This document shows, in pieces, positions 26,301-33,255 of a DNA stretch of 64,000 bases. The stretch is from Chloroflexota bacterium (lineage in GTDB: Bacteria > Chloroflexota > Dormibacteria > Dormibacterales > Dormibacteraceae). Numbering within the stretch: the first letter of the stretch is position 1; each line of letters starts with the position of its first letter. A model generated the notes under the pieces. That model was not told the DNA's origin. It ran no database searches and saw nothing but the letters and a program-made list of their open reading frames with translations. The stretch is from assembly GCA_005881275.1 (NCBI GenBank), contig VBEF01000039.1, forward strand, positions 1 to 64,000, read 5' to 3'. The translations under genes and the position numbers were made by a program.

Positions 26301-27419
26301 TCAGCTCAACTGGGAGGTGCCCAAGAGCACGTCTTTCATGGCTCGCACAGCCGGCGCGTCGCCCTGACGCACGGCCGCCCGTAGCGCCCGGACCGCGCGT
26401 GGCGTATCGAGGTCGTCGGCCAGCGCGGCGTTGAACTCCGCCATCAGCTGTCGACCCGGCGCGGGCCGGGCCCCGTCGTGCGCGAACCGGGCGTCATCGG
26501 CCAGGAATTTGCGCATCCGCTCGACGAACCGGGCCGACCGGGTCAGGCTCTTCCACTCGTAGGTCCAGTCGCGACCGTACCGATGGGAAACCAGGTAGAG
26601 CCGAACCGCCGCGGCCGGAGCCATCTGCAGCGCCTGGCTGACCTTGACGAGATTGCCACGCGACTTGCTCATCTTGTAACCCTCGTAGCGCACAAGCCCT
26701 GTGTGGACCCACGCCCGCACAAACGGCTTCTTGCCGGTCAGCGACTCCGACTGCGCGCGCTCCGACTCGTGGTGGCTGAACAGCAGGTCTCGCCCGCCTC
26801 CATGAAGGTCGATCTGCTCCCCCAGGTAGTGCATCGCCATCGCCGTGCACTCGATGTGCCACCCCGGCCGTCCCTCTCCAAACTTCGAGGGCCACGCCGG
26901 CTCGTCGGACCGGGAGCCTCGCCACAGAATGAAGTCAAGCGGGTCCCGCTTCGCCTCCGGCCCGACGACGCCGAGCAGGTCCTCGTGGCGAAGCTTGCGC
27001 AGCATGGAGCGGCGCGTCAGGTGCGAGAGGCGCCCGTAGCCGCGGTATTTGCTGACGTCGAAGTACAGGGCGTCCGTGTGGTAGGCAAAGCCGCGGGCCT
27101 GCAGCTTCGACGCCGCGGCGACGATCTGTCGGATCTCGTCGGAGACGCGGGGCATGACATCGGGAGGGCGCCATCCAAGCACCGTCATGTCGCGGACGTG
27201 CACCTGCGTCTCCCGGCCCGCGAGCTCGCGCCAATCGATGCCGTCGCGCCGCGCCCGCTCGAACAGCGGGTCGTCGACGTCCGTGATGTTCTGCACGTAC
27301 TTCACACGCCGACCGTTGGCTTCGAGGAACCTCACCAGCACGTCGAACATGGAGAACGTAAAGGCGTGGCCCATATGTCCCGACTCGTACGGCGTGACGC
27401 CGCACACGTAGAGGGTCAC
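26301..27419 (-). CDS. Cysteinyl-tRNA synthetase-like ligase resembling MshC
   Basis: 372 residues from the GTG at 27419. The class I aminoacyl-tRNA synthetase catalytic core is complete: HMGH (HIGH-type) within CGVTPYESGHMGHAF, YVQNITDVDDPLFERARRDG, zinc-site GWHIECTAMAMH and HHESE, and KMSKS. The DALR/anticodon-binding region of true CysS is nearly absent, and the length and the DPLFERARRDGIDWRELA block recall MshC, which joins cysteine to GlcN-inositol in mycothiol synthesis. Homology to the CysS/MshC N terminus continues ~20 codons upstream, yet those codons include no ATG, GTG or TTG, so a CTG (27491) or ATT (27482) start is possible. It follows metK directly. Confidence 0.75.
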   Translation of the reverse strand: MTLYVCGVTPYESGHMGHAFTFSMFDVLVRFLEANGRRVKYVQNITDVDDPLFERARRDGIDWRELAGRETQVHVRDMTVLGWRPPDVMPRVSDEIRQIVAAASKLQARGFAYHTDALYFDVSKYRGYGRLSHLTRRSMLRKLRHEDLLGVVGPEAKRDPLDFILWRGSRSDEPAWPSKFGEGRPGWHIECTAMAMHYLGEQIDLHGGGRDLLFSHHESERAQSESLTGKKPFVRAWVHTGLVRYEGYKMSKSRGNLVKVSQALQMAPAAAVRLYLVSHRYGRDWTYEWKSLTRSARFVERMRKFLADDARFAHDGARPAPGRQLMAEFNAALADDLDTPRAVRALRAAVRQGDAPAVRAMKDVLLGTSQLS

Positions 27420-28747: not shown

Positions 28748-29011
28748 TTACGAGGCGTTGTGATGCCTCGAGTCTTCAGGTTGCTGCCCCAGAAGCTGCG
28801 CCTGCATGTCGAAGATGTCATCGAGCACGCGGTCGATGCGCCGGCCCTCCAGGCGGTGCTCGGCGATGACGCCGGCCCGTTCGAGATGCTGGCGCAGCGA
28901 AATGCCGAGCGGGCCATCGACCCGGATCTGCCCGCGGACCTTCGCCTCCTCGAGAAGCTGGAGGCATCGATCGAGGGCGAGCTGCTTCGACCTGTGCGCG
29001 GGCAGGTTCAT
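28748..29011 (-). CDS. Small conserved-position hypothetical protein
   Basis: 87 residues beginning [22 protein letters not shown]. Its ATG overlaps the stop of the Rieske gene by 4 bp (ATGA), the strongest reason to call it. The protein is mainly helical and charged, with one Cys and no membrane segment or known motif. The region [33 protein letters not shown] could be a DNA- or protein-binding helical domain, but that is a guess. On the opposite strand there is a frame of similar length with no supporting context. Function unknown. Confidence 0.55.
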
Positions 29012-29595
29012 TCCGTGCCGAGCACCTCGACGCGGCCAGCTGCTGTGACCTGCACGTACACCTTGTTGAGCGGAGCCAGGTGATATGGGTCGGAAGGGTG
29101 GCCCTCCGGCGTGAACTTCGCGGGATGACAGGGACACACGAGCTGGCCGCTGCCGGCCTCCCACCACAGCTCGCACGGCAGGTGAGAGCAGATCGAAGAG
29201 ACCGCGGTCACGGTGTCGCCGCGCCGGAAGAGAAAGGCCCGGACGCCGCCCGCCACGACGCGTTTCCCCCTGCCCTCAACGAGCTCGCTCAGAGAGCCGA
29301 CGTCGATCCAGCGTCCCAGTCCACCGGCCGCAGCCCCCGCAGCCAGGCCAAGTCCGGCGACGAGCGCGGCCCGCCGGGTGACGAACCCTTCGCGTGGCGC
29401 TTGCTCCAGGTCATGCGCGAGACGCTTGCGAAACGCGGGGTGCATGCGCTGCGGACCCTGGCGGGCACCGGCGAGCCTGGCCGCCGCCGTGATCGCCGCC
29501 TTCTCGTCGGCGTCTCCCCCGCGCAGCTTGAGACGCCGGCCTCGAAGGAGGTCGGACACGATCTTCTCGACGCGGTTCTCGCGCTTGCCGTTCAT
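29008..29595 (-). CDS. Rieske 2Fe-2S protein with N-terminal helical domain
   Basis: 195 residues. The Rieske motifs are CSHLPC (Cys136, His138) and CPCH (Cys154, His157), with Cys141 and Cys156 placed for the stabilising disulfide, so the cluster should be functional. Residues ~74-93 (RRAALVAGLGLAAGAAAGG) form one membrane or twin-arginine-like segment, leaving residues 1-70 in the cytoplasm and the Rieske domain outside. The gene overlaps the ECF sigma gene by 4 bp (ATGA), the usual arrangement for sigma/anti-sigma pairs. Inferred role: membrane redox sensor for the sigma factor; alternatively an electron-transfer subunit. No cytochrome b is nearby. Confidence 0.85.
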   Translation of the reverse strand: MNGKRENRVEKIVSDLLRGRRLKLRGGDADEKAAITAAARLAGARQGPQRMHPAFRKRLAHDLEQAPREGFVTRRAALVAGLGLAAGAAAGGLGRWIDVGSLSELVEGRGKRVVAGGVRAFLFRRGDTVTAVSSICSHLPCELWWEAGSGQLVCPCHPAKFTPEGHPSDPYHLAPLNKVYVQVTAAGRVEVLGTE

Positions 29596-30125
29596 TCGCC
29601 CGGCCTCACCTTTGCCGCTGCGCGCAGCGCGCGAAGCTGCATGACCTTGATCGCACCGACGGTGGAGTTCATTTCCGCGGCCACTTCTTTGAGTGAATAC
29701 CCGTACAGGAAACGGAGCTCGAGAACCCGCCTGTAGTTGTCGGAAAGCTGGGCCAGGATCCGCTGCACGGTTTCCGTTCCTCCCTCAGACGGCGGTTCGG
29801 GTGGAACGCTCAGCATCAGGTCTTCATGCAGCTCGGCCTCGGACAACCCAAGGCGTGTGCTCCAGAACCCGCCCAGGACTGAGCGCGCCGTGGCGAAGAG
29901 GTAGCCGCGAATCGAGCTCGCCGCAGCGTTTTGCCGCAGGCGAGGGATGGCTTTCAGCGCCACCTGCTGGGTCAGATCCTCGGCGTCGGCCCGGTTGCCG
30001 ACCCGCGCGTAGATGAATGCGTAGACAAGCTCCAGCTCATTGAGCGCGATGTCGGTCGCCCGCGAGGCGGCGGGCAGCTCGAGGACGTCGCGCTGCGCCT
30101 GCGCGTCTTGCTCGTCCGGCGTCAC
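29592..30125 (-). CDS. ECF-family RNA polymerase sigma factor
   Basis: 177 residues from the GTG at 30125, 7 bp after the lipoprotein stop. Region 2 is at about 25-85 (YAFIYARVGNRADAEDLTQQVALKAI) and region 4 near the C terminus (LSDNYRRVLELRFLYGYSLKEVAAEMNSTVGAIKVMQLRAL). A start 24 codons upstream lies within the lipoprotein gene. It is followed with a 4-bp overlap by the Rieske protein gene, which occupies the usual anti-sigma position. A lipoprotein gene precedes it on the same strand and could be a regulon member. Confidence 0.9.
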   Translation of the reverse strand: MTPDEQDAQAQRDVLELPAASRATDIALNELELVYAFIYARVGNRADAEDLTQQVALKAIPRLRQNAAASSIRGYLFATARSVLGGFWSTRLGLSEAELHEDLMLSVPPEPPSEGGTETVQRILAQLSDNYRRVLELRFLYGYSLKEVAAEMNSTVGAIKVMQLRALRAAAKVRPGE

Positions 30126-30132
30126 TGGTCGC

Positions 30133-30609
30133 CTAGGAGAAGAGGTTGCCGCAGAGCAGGTAGCTCGAGTTCGACCCCTGCATGTCGGGGCCGGCATGCA
30201 CGACGACGTACCACGTGCCGCTGGCCGGCGGATATCTCAGGTTCATCAGCGTTGTCCTGACGTCGGAGTCGCCCTGGCCGTCGGCCACGACCTGGTTCAA
30301 GGCGAACGCGATGCCGCCGCGCGACTGGCACGTCCCGAGGTGGATGTGCGAGACGTGGGACGAGTTCGCCTGCAGGCCGCTGACCTTCAGCTCGATGGCG
30401 GTCGTGCTCTGGTCGGCCAACAGCGTGATCGTCCCGCTCGCGGTGACGCCAGGCTCGGGCGTGAGGCGGAACGTGACGCCCTTCGGGCTCGGCGAAGACG
30501 TAGGCCTGGACGAGGCTGGAGGCGTGGGTGAAGCCGTTGTTGCCGACTCGCCGCCGCAGGCCATCGCGCAGACCGCGACCGCCACCACAGCGAACCATGC
30601 CTTGGGCAT
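30133..30609 (-). CDS. CHRD-like lipoprotein
   Basis: 158 residues. The signal peptide (about 1-18) ends in a lipobox-like AMAC, with the Cys at about residue 18, followed by a Ser/Thr/Pro linker. The mature domain is beta-rich and resembles CHRD proteins: GVTASGTITLL, SHVSHIHLGTCQSRGGIAFAL and ASGTWYVVVHAGPDMQG. CHRD domains occur in exported proteins of unsettled function. It is encoded just before the ECF sigma gene on the same strand, behind a strong hairpin that separates it from the DUF4349 gene. Confidence 0.78.
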   Translation of the reverse strand: MPKAWFAVVAVAVCAMACGGESATTASPTPPASSRPTSSPSPKGVTFRLTPEPGVTASGTITLLADQSTTAIELKVSGLQANSSHVSHIHLGTCQSRGGIAFALNQVVADGQGDSDVRTTLMNLRYPPASGTWYVVVHAGPDMQGSNSSYLLCGNLFS

Positions 30610-30626
30610 TACCGCAGCAGGTTACT

Positions 30627-30678: not shown

Positions 30679-31584
30679 CTACGGGCGCCAGGGCAGCGGC
30701 ACGCGGCGCCACCGCAGCACCAGGTAGCCGAGAAATCCGAGCACGAGCAGCGGACCGATCGCGCCCAGTCCCGTGACGACGTAGTTGATGGTGGTCACGA
30801 AGTTGTGCGCGGCGTCGTTCAGGGCGGTCGCAAAGCCCCAGCCGTCACCCGTCGCGGTGCGCGCTGGTGCACCTGACTCCGTCATCGTCACGCTGATCGA
30901 GCTGTAGGAGGTGTTGTCGTCCAGATACTTGATCTGACCCTTGAGCTGCTCGATCTGGGCCGTGATCTGGCCGATCTGGTTCTGCACCGCGATGATGTCG
31001 TTGATGTTTTGAGCCTTCGTGAGAAGCGCGAGCATCGCGTTCCTCTGCGCCTCCGCGTTGGCCAGGCGTGCCCGCAGGTCGACGTACTGCGCGCCCACGT
31101 CGGTTCCCGTGATGTGCTCGCTCTGGACCTTGCCGACCTTGGCCAGCTCGTCGATCGCGCTGTCGAAATGCGCGGCGGGGACCATGAAGTTGATTATTCC
31201 CGTGCGGATCTGGCTGTCCTGAACCTGACCTGTTGGGTTGGCCTGGGCGTCGGTACCCGCGATGTAGCCGCCCTGGAGCTCGACCAGGTTGCGGACCTGC
31301 GCGAGCTTGGAATCGAACGTGCCGGCTCCGACGGTGACCGCCAGCTGCGCCTGACGGATGACCGGTGGGCCCTGGAAAGCTGGAATCGTGGTGCCCGGCA
31401 ATGTGGTGCCTCCGGTGGTGCCGTTGGGCAACCCGGCGCTCTTCGACGGTTGCGCGGAATCCGTGCCGCCGCGCGCGACCGGCGCCTTTTCGCCGAGGCC
31501 CGATGACGAGCTGGCGGTGTTGGCGGCTCCGCCGCAGGCGGCCGCCGCAACGACGATGGCAACTACGACAAGGACCTTCTTCAT
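30679..31584 (-). CDS. DUF4349-containing lipoprotein
   Basis: 301 residues starting MKKVLVVVAIVVAAAACGG, a lipoprotein signal with lipobox Cys at 18, then a low-complexity Ser/Thr/Gly linker. The DUF4349 domain shows RQAQLAVTVGAGTFDSKLAQV and GGYIAGTDA. Then comes a coiled-coil region (LANAEAQRNAMLALLTKAQNI ... QIGQITAQIEQLKGQIKYL) and one C-terminal membrane helix (LGAIGPLLVLGFLGYLVL). The family is an envelope protein of unknown role. The frame stays open far upstream (to 33147), but that part is antisense to the ABC-F gene. The ATG at 31584 is divergent from ABC-F, 72 bp away. Confidence 0.88.
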   Translation of the reverse strand: MKKVLVVVAIVVAAAACGGAANTASSSSGLGEKAPVARGGTDSAQPSKSAGLPNGTTGGTTLPGTTIPAFQGPPVIRQAQLAVTVGAGTFDSKLAQVRNLVELQGGYIAGTDAQANPTGQVQDSQIRTGIINFMVPAAHFDSAIDELAKVGKVQSEHITGTDVGAQYVDLRARLANAEAQRNAMLALLTKAQNINDIIAVQNQIGQITAQIEQLKGQIKYLDDNTSYSSISVTMTESGAPARTATGDGWGFATALNDAAHNFVTTINYVVTGLGAIGPLLVLGFLGYLVLRWRRVPLPWRP

Positions 31585-31656
31585 GTGCGAGCGGCCTCCT
31601 GGGCGCTTATTTGCCTGACAGAACGTCAGGCGCGGAGCCAGGTAACAGTTGCCGTA

Positions 31657-33255
31657 ATGTCTGGCCTCGTGCTGCAGGTCCGCAACCTTGCCATCGACGT
31701 CGCCGCGCGCCGCATGCTGTCGGACGCGAGCTTCACCGTCGCCGCGGGAGACAAGGTCGGCCTGGTGGGGCGCAACGGCGCCGGCAAGACAAGCCTGCTC
31801 AAGGTCCTCGCCGGCGATGACGACGCGGCGGCCGGAGTCGTTCTCCGCCGGGGGACACTCGGTTATGTACCGCAGAATCCGCGGCCGCGAGCGGAAGCCG
31901 CCCCAACAGCTCTCACGCACATCCTGTCTGGGCGAGGCCTCGACCGCGCCGCGGCACGTCTCGCCGAGCTGCACACGCGACTGGAGCATGATCACTCGCT
32001 GGCGAGCATCGAGCGATATTCCGCCGCAGAGGAGAGCTACCGGCTTGACGGCGGCTACTCGAGCGAGTCGGACGCGCGGCGGATCGCGGGCGGGCTGGGT
32101 CTTCGGCTCGACAGGGTCGACCTGCCGCTGAGCGTGCTGTCGGGCGGAGAGCGCAGACGCGTCGAGCTGGCGCGCGTGCTGTTCGCGGGCGCAGATCTGC
32201 TTTTGCTCGACGAGCCCACCAACCACCTCGACAGCAACGCCAAGACATGGTTGATGGACTTCCTGCGCGATTACCGCGGGGCGGTGATCGTGGTGAGCCA
32301 CGACCTCGGCCTGCTCGACAGCTCGATCACGCGCGTCCTGCATCTCGACGCGGGGCGGTTGATCGAATACCGCGGCACCTACTCGCAGTATCAGGAGGCA
32401 CGCCGGCGCGAAGAGAAGCGCCTGACATCGTTGGCCCATCGCCAGGAGGCGGAGATCAAGCGCTTGAGCTTGCTGGCTGAGGTGATGCGCCGGCAGACCG
32501 AGAAGCGCGCCAAGCAAGCCAAATCGATCTTCACGCGCGTCGAGCGGATGAAAGCAGTGCGCGTCGTCGCGCCAAGGCGGGAGCGGAAGGTCAAGATCAA
32601 CTTCCCGGAGCCGCCGCACAGCGGGCGGATCGCGCTTCACGCCTCGGGGCTGGCCAAGGGCTACGGCGGCCCGCTGGTGTTTTCCGACGTGTCTTTCGAG
32701 GTGGAGCGCCGCGAGAGGTTGCTGGTGATGGGTCTGAACGGTGCGGGCAAGACAAGCCTGCTCCGCATCCTGGCGGGCGAGAGCACGGCGAACGCGGGGT
32801 CGTTCCGGCTCGGTCACGGCGTGTCGTTGGGTTACTACGCGCAAGAACACGAAGGCATTCGGGCGGGGGTCACAGTGCTGGCGCACATGCGCGAGCAGTC
32901 GGACGCCGAGGAACGAGTGCTGCGCGCGCTGTTGGGGATGTTCAACCTGACGGGTGATATCGCGCGGCAGGACGCGGGGACGCTCTCCGGTGGGGAGAAG
33001 ACGAAGCTGGCGCTGGCCCAGCTCGTGGCGGGGCGGCACAACGTGCTCCTGCTGGACGAGCCGACCAACAACCTGGATCCGCCATCGCGGACAGGTGTCG
33101 CGCGGGCCCTCGCGGAGTGGCCGGGGACGATGGTGATCGTGAGCCACGACCCGGAGTTCGTGGACGCGCTACGACCGGGCAGAGTCATGTTCATGCCCGA
33201 GGGCCGGATCGACTACTGGGAGGAGGATCTGCTCGACGTTGTGTCGATGGCTTAG
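31657..33255 (+). CDS. ABC-F family ATPase (ribosome-associated type)
   Basis: 532 residues with two ABC cassettes and no membrane domain. Cassette 1 has Walker A GRNGAGKTSLLKV near 37, LSGGERRRVELARVL and LLLLDEPTNHLD. Cassette 2 has GLNGAGKTSLLRI near 360, LSGGEKTKLALAQL and LLLDEPTNNLD. A charged helical linker (about 240-320) between them is the region that enters the ribosomal E/P site in ABC-F proteins. Such proteins act as translation factors or give antibiotic ribosome protection; which applies here is unknown. ATG 31657 chosen as the start of the conserved domain, 24 codons after an earlier in-frame ATG. Confidence 0.93.
   Translation: MSGLVLQVRNLAIDVAARRMLSDASFTVAAGDKVGLVGRNGAGKTSLLKVLAGDDDAAAGVVLRRGTLGYVPQNPRPRAEAAPTALTHILSGRGLDRAAARLAELHTRLEHDHSLASIERYSAAEESYRLDGGYSSESDARRIAGGLGLRLDRVDLPLSVLSGGERRRVELARVLFAGADLLLLDEPTNHLDSNAKTWLMDFLRDYRGAVIVVSHDLGLLDSSITRVLHLDAGRLIEYRGTYSQYQEARRREEKRLTSLAHRQEAEIKRLSLLAEVMRRQTEKRAKQAKSIFTRVERMKAVRVVAPRRERKVKINFPEPPHSGRIALHASGLAKGYGGPLVFSDVSFEVERRERLLVMGLNGAGKTSLLRILAGESTANAGSFRLGHGVSLGYYAQEHEGIRAGVTVLAHMREQSDAEERVLRALLGMFNLTGDIARQDAGTLSGGEKTKLALAQLVAGRHNVLLLDEPTNNLDPPSRTGVARALAEWPGTMVIVSHDPEFVDALRPGRVMFMPEGRIDYWEEDLLDVVSMA

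Follow-up and report, generated by a model that had tools for sequence, protein, structure and literature searches.

A conserved pair of genes in the Chloroflexota encoding an ECF sigma factor and a putative membrane anti-sigma factor with a Rieske outer domain

The inputs known so far to anti-sigma factors are zinc, thiols, peptides, siderophore receptors and proteolysis. RskA of Mycobacterium tuberculosis, encoded beside its own ECF sigma factor SigK, resembles the system proposed here in being a single-pass, redox-sensitive anti-sigma factor with secreted targets; unlike it, RskA senses through the cysteines of the sigma factor and proteolysis, and is not known to have a Rieske domain or a Tat-type anchor. 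Anti-sigma factors of the ZAS/ChrR/RsrA type share with it an anti-sigma role and metal-based sensing, as proposed here, but the metal centre in our case would be [2Fe-2S] and would lie outside the cytoplasm. Among Rieske proteins, those of the PetC3-like and bacterial membrane type (8hn2, 5cxm) have the same fold and the same ligand pattern with its disulfide pair, although those proteins carry electrons and have no sigma-linked domain at the N-terminus. RsbN, the partner of BldN in Streptomyces, is a membrane anti-sigma factor with a short helical cytoplasmic domain, and it defines the class III anti-sigma domains, in which sigma4 is contacted by helices 1 and 2 and sigma2 by helix 3 (PMC7406223, PMC8103513). 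Sigma-BldN is the closest solved structure to the sigma factor studied here, and the cytoplasmic domain (NT) of the adjacent protein equals that of RsbN in its predicted number of helices and is similar in size, as compared by description. NT has, however, no sequence similarity to solved anti-sigma domains, and the outer domain of the protein is a Rieske domain.

The window, by which we mean the whole 64,000-nucleotide stretch of DNA that was analyzed, carries on its minus strand, in this order, a DUF4349 gene, a CHRD lipoprotein gene, an ECF sigma gene, a Rieske gene, an 87-aa ORF and metK. The original prediction, that the ECF sigma gene is adjoined by a membrane Rieske gene with an ATGA overlap, is borne out: the overlap joins the sigma stop to the Rieske start, and a second ATGA joins the Rieske stop to the start of the 87-aa ORF. 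The features are located as follows.

30133-30609, minus strand: CHRD-domain lipoprotein gene, the first gene of the operon and a likely target
29592-30125, minus strand: ECF sigma gene, 177 aa from a GTG start, with regions 2 and 4 but no region 3
29008-29595, minus strand: NT-TM-Rieske gene, 195 aa, ATG start, putative membrane-bound anti-sigma factor
29377-29595, minus strand: NT, residues 1-73, the three-helix cytoplasmic part and proposed sigma-binding domain
29317-29376, minus strand: twin-arginine (TRRAALVAG) membrane anchor, residues 74-93
29011-29313, minus strand: Rieske [2Fe-2S] domain, residues 95-195, CSHLPC...CPCH
28748-29011, minus strand: 87-aa ORF, function unassigned, in ATGA overlap with the Rieske gene

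The sigma gene product matches Sigma70_r2 (E=8e-7) and r4_2 (E=4e-11) in Pfam and scores above cut-off with the sigma70-ECF model TIGR02937 in NCBIfam; with regions 2 and 4 present and region 3 absent, it is an ECF (group 4) sigma-70 factor. Its single PDB match at E<=1e-5 is sigma-BldN in complex with RsbN (6dxo), and its best NCBIfam score is with the BldN family, below cut-off. The 87-aa ORF gives nothing above cut-off in Pfam or NCBIfam; it is 54-84% identical within the window's family and absent from the other families checked, and since it is conserved within one family only, it is probably local and not part of the core. The CHRD and DUF4349 genes are also confined to the window's family among the loci checked. 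Both the lipoprotein and the 87-aa gene had been put forward as possible parts of the system; the lipoprotein gene is preceded by a motif at 30610-30625. A CysS-like ligase gene lies on the minus strand at 26301-27419; the MshC (mycothiol ligase) model outscores CysS for its product, with both below cut-off.

The pairing of an ECF sigma factor with a membrane Rieske protein is not a local accident, and is almost universal across the phylum. More than 100 loci were examined; they come from the Dormibacteria and from numerous other families in the phylum, the named relatives being Dormibacterota/Chloroflexi soil MAGs. First, the Rieske protein is detected in 52 of 61 relatives, and full-length proteins with NT, TM and Rieske parts are present in many further families of the phylum. 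Second, the sigma and Rieske genes are adjacent at 106 of 107 testable loci, a survey whose failure had been named beforehand as grounds for giving up the proposal. The sigma gene is immediately upstream and on the same strand at every one of 40 loci outside the class, at all testable loci of the first type within the class, and at all but one locus of the second type; the lone exception (L119) has an assembly gap (N) where the sigma gene would lie. Third, all 44 loci measured have the sigma and Rieske frames overlapping, by 1-14 bp. As the other neighbors differ outside the class, it is the sigma-Rieske pair that constitutes the unit. Most of these genomes appear to be metagenome-assembled, which could favor the view that the pair arose from faulty annotation or assembly, or through chance proximity; the order and overlap are nonetheless the same in independent assemblies, including the single-contig G354 and G191, and adjacency and overlap across the loci refute this explanation, whose probability we regard as negligible.

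We propose that the product of the Rieske gene crosses the membrane once and acts as an anti-sigma factor reporting envelope redox or cluster status, and we put the probability of this explanation as a whole at roughly two in three. The NT domain would hold the sigma factor, encoded just upstream, at the membrane. The Rieske domain would fold around its [2Fe-2S] cluster while still in the cytoplasm; Tat would then carry it to the outer face, and the twin-arginine segment would remain as an anchor. A change in the cluster (its oxidation state, its loss, or missing insertion or export) would loosen the hold of NT on sigma, and the released sigma factor would transcribe its own operon and a few genes for secreted proteins and lipoproteins (CHRD, Lipoprotein_15, cupredoxins and YceI).

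The predicted topology of the Rieske protein, with a cytoplasmic helical domain, one TM and an outer domain, is that of a membrane-bound anti-sigma factor. The 70-residue cytoplasmic helical part and membrane or TAT-like segment described in the original prediction correspond closely to what we find: about 73 residues with three helices (predicted by AlphaFold2, with low confidence, at residues 4-17, 32-44 and 53-64), then RR and the only hydrophobic segment of the protein. By a coarse count, 100 of the 102 ORFs collected have the twin arginine, and in a 36-sequence alignment RR (74-75), Trp96, Cys136, Cys141, Cys154, Cys156 and His157 are invariant. RR ahead of a hydrophobic segment characterizes a Tat substrate; export itself is predicted, and, reasoning from the family pathway, the position of RR before the sole hydrophobic segment would fit export of a folded, cluster-loaded domain with the anchor left uncleaved and NT remaining cytoplasmic. 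RsbN is not known to have a twin-arginine anchor. In every complete aligned relative a linker of about 20 residues separates the anchor from the Rieske domain; the window protein lacks it (29313-29317), through either an in-frame deletion or an assembly error.

The outer domain matches Pfam Rieske over cut-off (E=3e-10) and is modelled by AlphaFold2 with a pLDDT of about 90-96; Foldseek comparison of this model returns 8hn2 (E=1.5e-8), and the matches are the Rieske proteins of C. tepidum and PetC3. The ligands within CSHLPC...CPCH are Cys136, His138, Cys154 and His157, with Cys141/Cys156 as the disulfide pair. By its fold and its CxH...CxxH ligands this is a Rieske domain, and it is predicted to bind [2Fe-2S]. 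In bc1-type Rieske proteins Ser and Tyr come after CPCH; the same positions in this family are occupied by A/T/N/P and mostly F, a replacement that would suggest a lower potential. That all ligands are present, as had been claimed, is true of the window protein and not of the family in general: position 138 is His in 90 of the 97 relatives with a readable motif and Asp in 7. The loci with Asp as a substitute for the first His ligand (CSD/CTD) are L045, L048, L050, L054, L073, L209 and L216, and these keep the other ligands and the disulfide cysteines. An Asp-ligated [2Fe-2S] cluster is chemically unusual, yet not impossible, and with one His ligand so replaced the chemistry of the cluster may vary.

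These features of the anchor and ligands bear directly on the main rival within the anti-sigma frame, in which cluster insertion or Tat export, and not redox state, is the signal. NT would still be an anti-sigma domain, but folding of the Rieske domain, insertion of its cluster and Tat export would act as a checkpoint; anti-sigma factor that fails to mature would be degraded and the sigma factor freed, so that the system would report Fe-S supply or Tat capacity. This explanation gains from the invariance of the twin arginine before the anchor, from the fact that Tat substrates are usually exported only once folded, and from the seven relatives with Asp for His, which suggest that exact redox tuning is dispensable. 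However, the ligands and disulfide cysteines are otherwise strongly conserved, which fits a working cluster, and we identified neither a protease site nor a partner for quality control. We consider a checkpoint of this kind unlikely, and prefer the sensing of envelope redox or cluster status.

For the NT domain, we propose a role in binding sigma from three lines of sequence evidence: natural fusions, a non-Rieske partner, and co-divergence with sigma. All three support the anti-sigma role that the original prediction had assigned to the Rieske protein. First, NT forms the C-terminus of an ECF sigma factor, with no membrane segment, in three genomes, the only in-frame fusions that the search recovered.

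Locus L105, 4518-5246, plus strand: sigma-NT fusion gene
Locus L106, 6186-6923, minus strand: sigma-NT fusion gene
Locus L107, 6531-7268, minus strand: sigma-NT fusion gene

Downstream of each fusion gene are a second sigma gene, an NT-TM-Rieske gene and a further Rieske gene. The fusions matched NT profile A1 at E values of 1.2e-5 to 3.5e-8, and because this profile contained no fusion sequences their discovery is not circular; their higher scores with profile A7 are circular, since A7 includes two fusion rows. Second, at locus L284 (4099-6962, plus strand) a different ECF sigma gene is followed by one for an NT-TM protein whose outer domain is Ig-like and not Rieske. Third, pairwise distances over 90 pairs correlate with r=0.90 for sigma and NT, 0.85 for sigma and Rieske, and 0.84 for NT and Rieske, all three values being inflated by shared ancestry; the partial r is 0.65 for sigma and NT versus 0.41 for sigma and Rieske, and NT divergence follows that of sigma more closely than that of the Rieske domain on its own chain. 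The NT matches inspected in 400 genomes lie almost all in sigma-paired genes. NT also stands alone, in ORFs of 78-80 aa with neither an anchor nor a Rieske domain, at L108 (4371-4607, minus strand) and L279 (4293-4535, plus strand); these ORFs possibly encode soluble anti-sigma factors or competitors.

The same data weigh on a second alternative, that the Rieske protein is an envelope electron carrier co-transcribed with the sigma factor that induces it, NT being a mere anchor or assembly domain and sigma being controlled otherwise. Rieske domains normally carry electrons, and the likely regulon described below includes cupredoxins, which are redox proteins. Against this, NT is fused to sigma without any Rieske domain or anchor, at L284 it accompanies another ECF sigma factor and is joined to an outer domain other than Rieske, and its inspected matches are so predominantly sigma-paired. 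The genomic setting also differs from that of a respiratory Rieske subunit: the cytochrome bc1/b6f Rieske subunit models all score far below cut-off for the window protein, its neighbors in the window are the sigma, CHRD, metK, mshC/cysS-like and ABC-F genes with no cytochrome b paired to it, and no cytochrome b or oxidase gene was recognized among the checked neighbors of the loci. We regard an electron carrier with an incidental NT as distinctly unlikely, and retain NT as the proposed anti-sigma domain.

The structural support for NT is indirect. Its pLDDT is 55-70 alone (window) and mostly 75-97 when joined to sigma (L226), a weak comparison between different proteins. The joined model is an in-frame read-through of sigma, stop and NT from G020 (L226), and is a modelling device with no recoding claimed. 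VIA-align/Foldseek comparison of this model returned sigma factors, many of them from anti-sigma complexes; as the alignments cover the sigma part only, they are uninformative on NT. Two NT profiles compared with the PDB found no solved anti-sigma domain and gave matches at chance level, such as retroviral capsid fragments, and the NT profile matched no family in Pfam or NCBIfam. NT does not have the attributes of a zinc anti-sigma or class I domain, there being no match to one in Pfam or NCBIfam and no Cys in the aligned rows inspected.

A motif, GTAACC-N6/7-[CG]GTA, lies ahead of 82 of the 93 sigma operons. Its density is 2.56 per kb upstream of these operons versus 0.02 per kb in the remainder of those loci, a difference of about 130-fold, and L184, among the 11 loci without it, has a copy just beyond the searched stretch. 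No other conserved upstream element was found for the sigma operons. The window contains exactly two copies, where 0.13 would be expected.

30610-30625, minus strand: motif copy 1, GTAACCTGCTGCGGTA, with the ATG of the CHRD lipoprotein gene directly behind
31642-31656, plus strand: motif copy 2, GTAACAGTTGCCGTA, immediately followed by the ATG of the divergent ABC-F gene

A sigma promoter motif had been anticipated before both the lipoprotein and the DUF4349 genes; it is present before the first, but the copy near DUF4349 points to the divergent ABC-F gene. Within the divergent DUF4349/ABC-F intergenic region (31584-31657) there is also a block, TGTTACGT-N13-GCGTTTGGTC, that is conserved across the family, and one half of it is the reverse of the GTAAC motif. 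Genes for secreted proteins are preceded by additional copies of the motif, two of them in the window's own genome but outside the window and the rest at further loci. They precede Lipoprotein_15 genes (L242, L062, L067, L190, L199 and L218), a CHRD gene (L244), cupredoxin genes (L184, L190 and L110) and a YceI gene (L110). At L190 (G133:C208) there are five copies in about 5 kb, which lie before Lipoprotein_15, two cupredoxins, the sigma operon and a 118-aa ORF. The positions of the motif suggest a regulon that includes Lipoprotein_15, CHRD, cupredoxin and YceI genes. Genome-wide counts show no clear excess over a reversed-pattern control in any genome tested, so the argument for a regulon is one of position, not of count.

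The sigma factor is the only regulator that is always present, and for this reason we infer that it reads the motif. GTAAC, the first half of the motif, appears to resemble the -35 element of BldN promoters, but the gap to the second half is much smaller than standard ECF promoters have. With its halves 12-13 bp apart and start codons as little as 0-15 nt behind it, the motif was rejected as a standard ECF -35/-10 pair. We are evenly divided on the broader proposal that ECF systems throughout the phylum use an exported Rieske domain as the sensory part of a transmembrane anti-sigma factor, and that compact GTAACC-N6/7-CGTA promoters let redox or cluster status on the outer side of the membrane control the transcription of genes for cupredoxins, Lipoprotein_15 and CHRD proteins.

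Membrane anti-sigma factors are themselves known, and what would be new here is one with a Rieske outer domain. A search of the open literature, 5.39 million papers, for Rieske proteins together with ECF or anti-sigma factors gave nothing relevant; the 2021 ECF reclassification was outside its scope, and an earlier mention in a group description is possible. Rieske domains are likewise unmentioned in two ECF reviews and in the class I anti-sigma survey. The natural sigma-NT fusions make the claim of sigma binding testable with one small soluble protein. If the proposal is correct, anti-sigma factors would have a new type of input, a Rieske cluster serving as outer sensor, and sigma release would be tied directly to the redox chemistry of quinones, copper or oxygen in the envelope. 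It would also be the first regulatory function for membrane Rieske proteins outside bc complexes, and would provide a testable regulon for the Lipoprotein_15 and CHRD proteins, for which we know of no established role.
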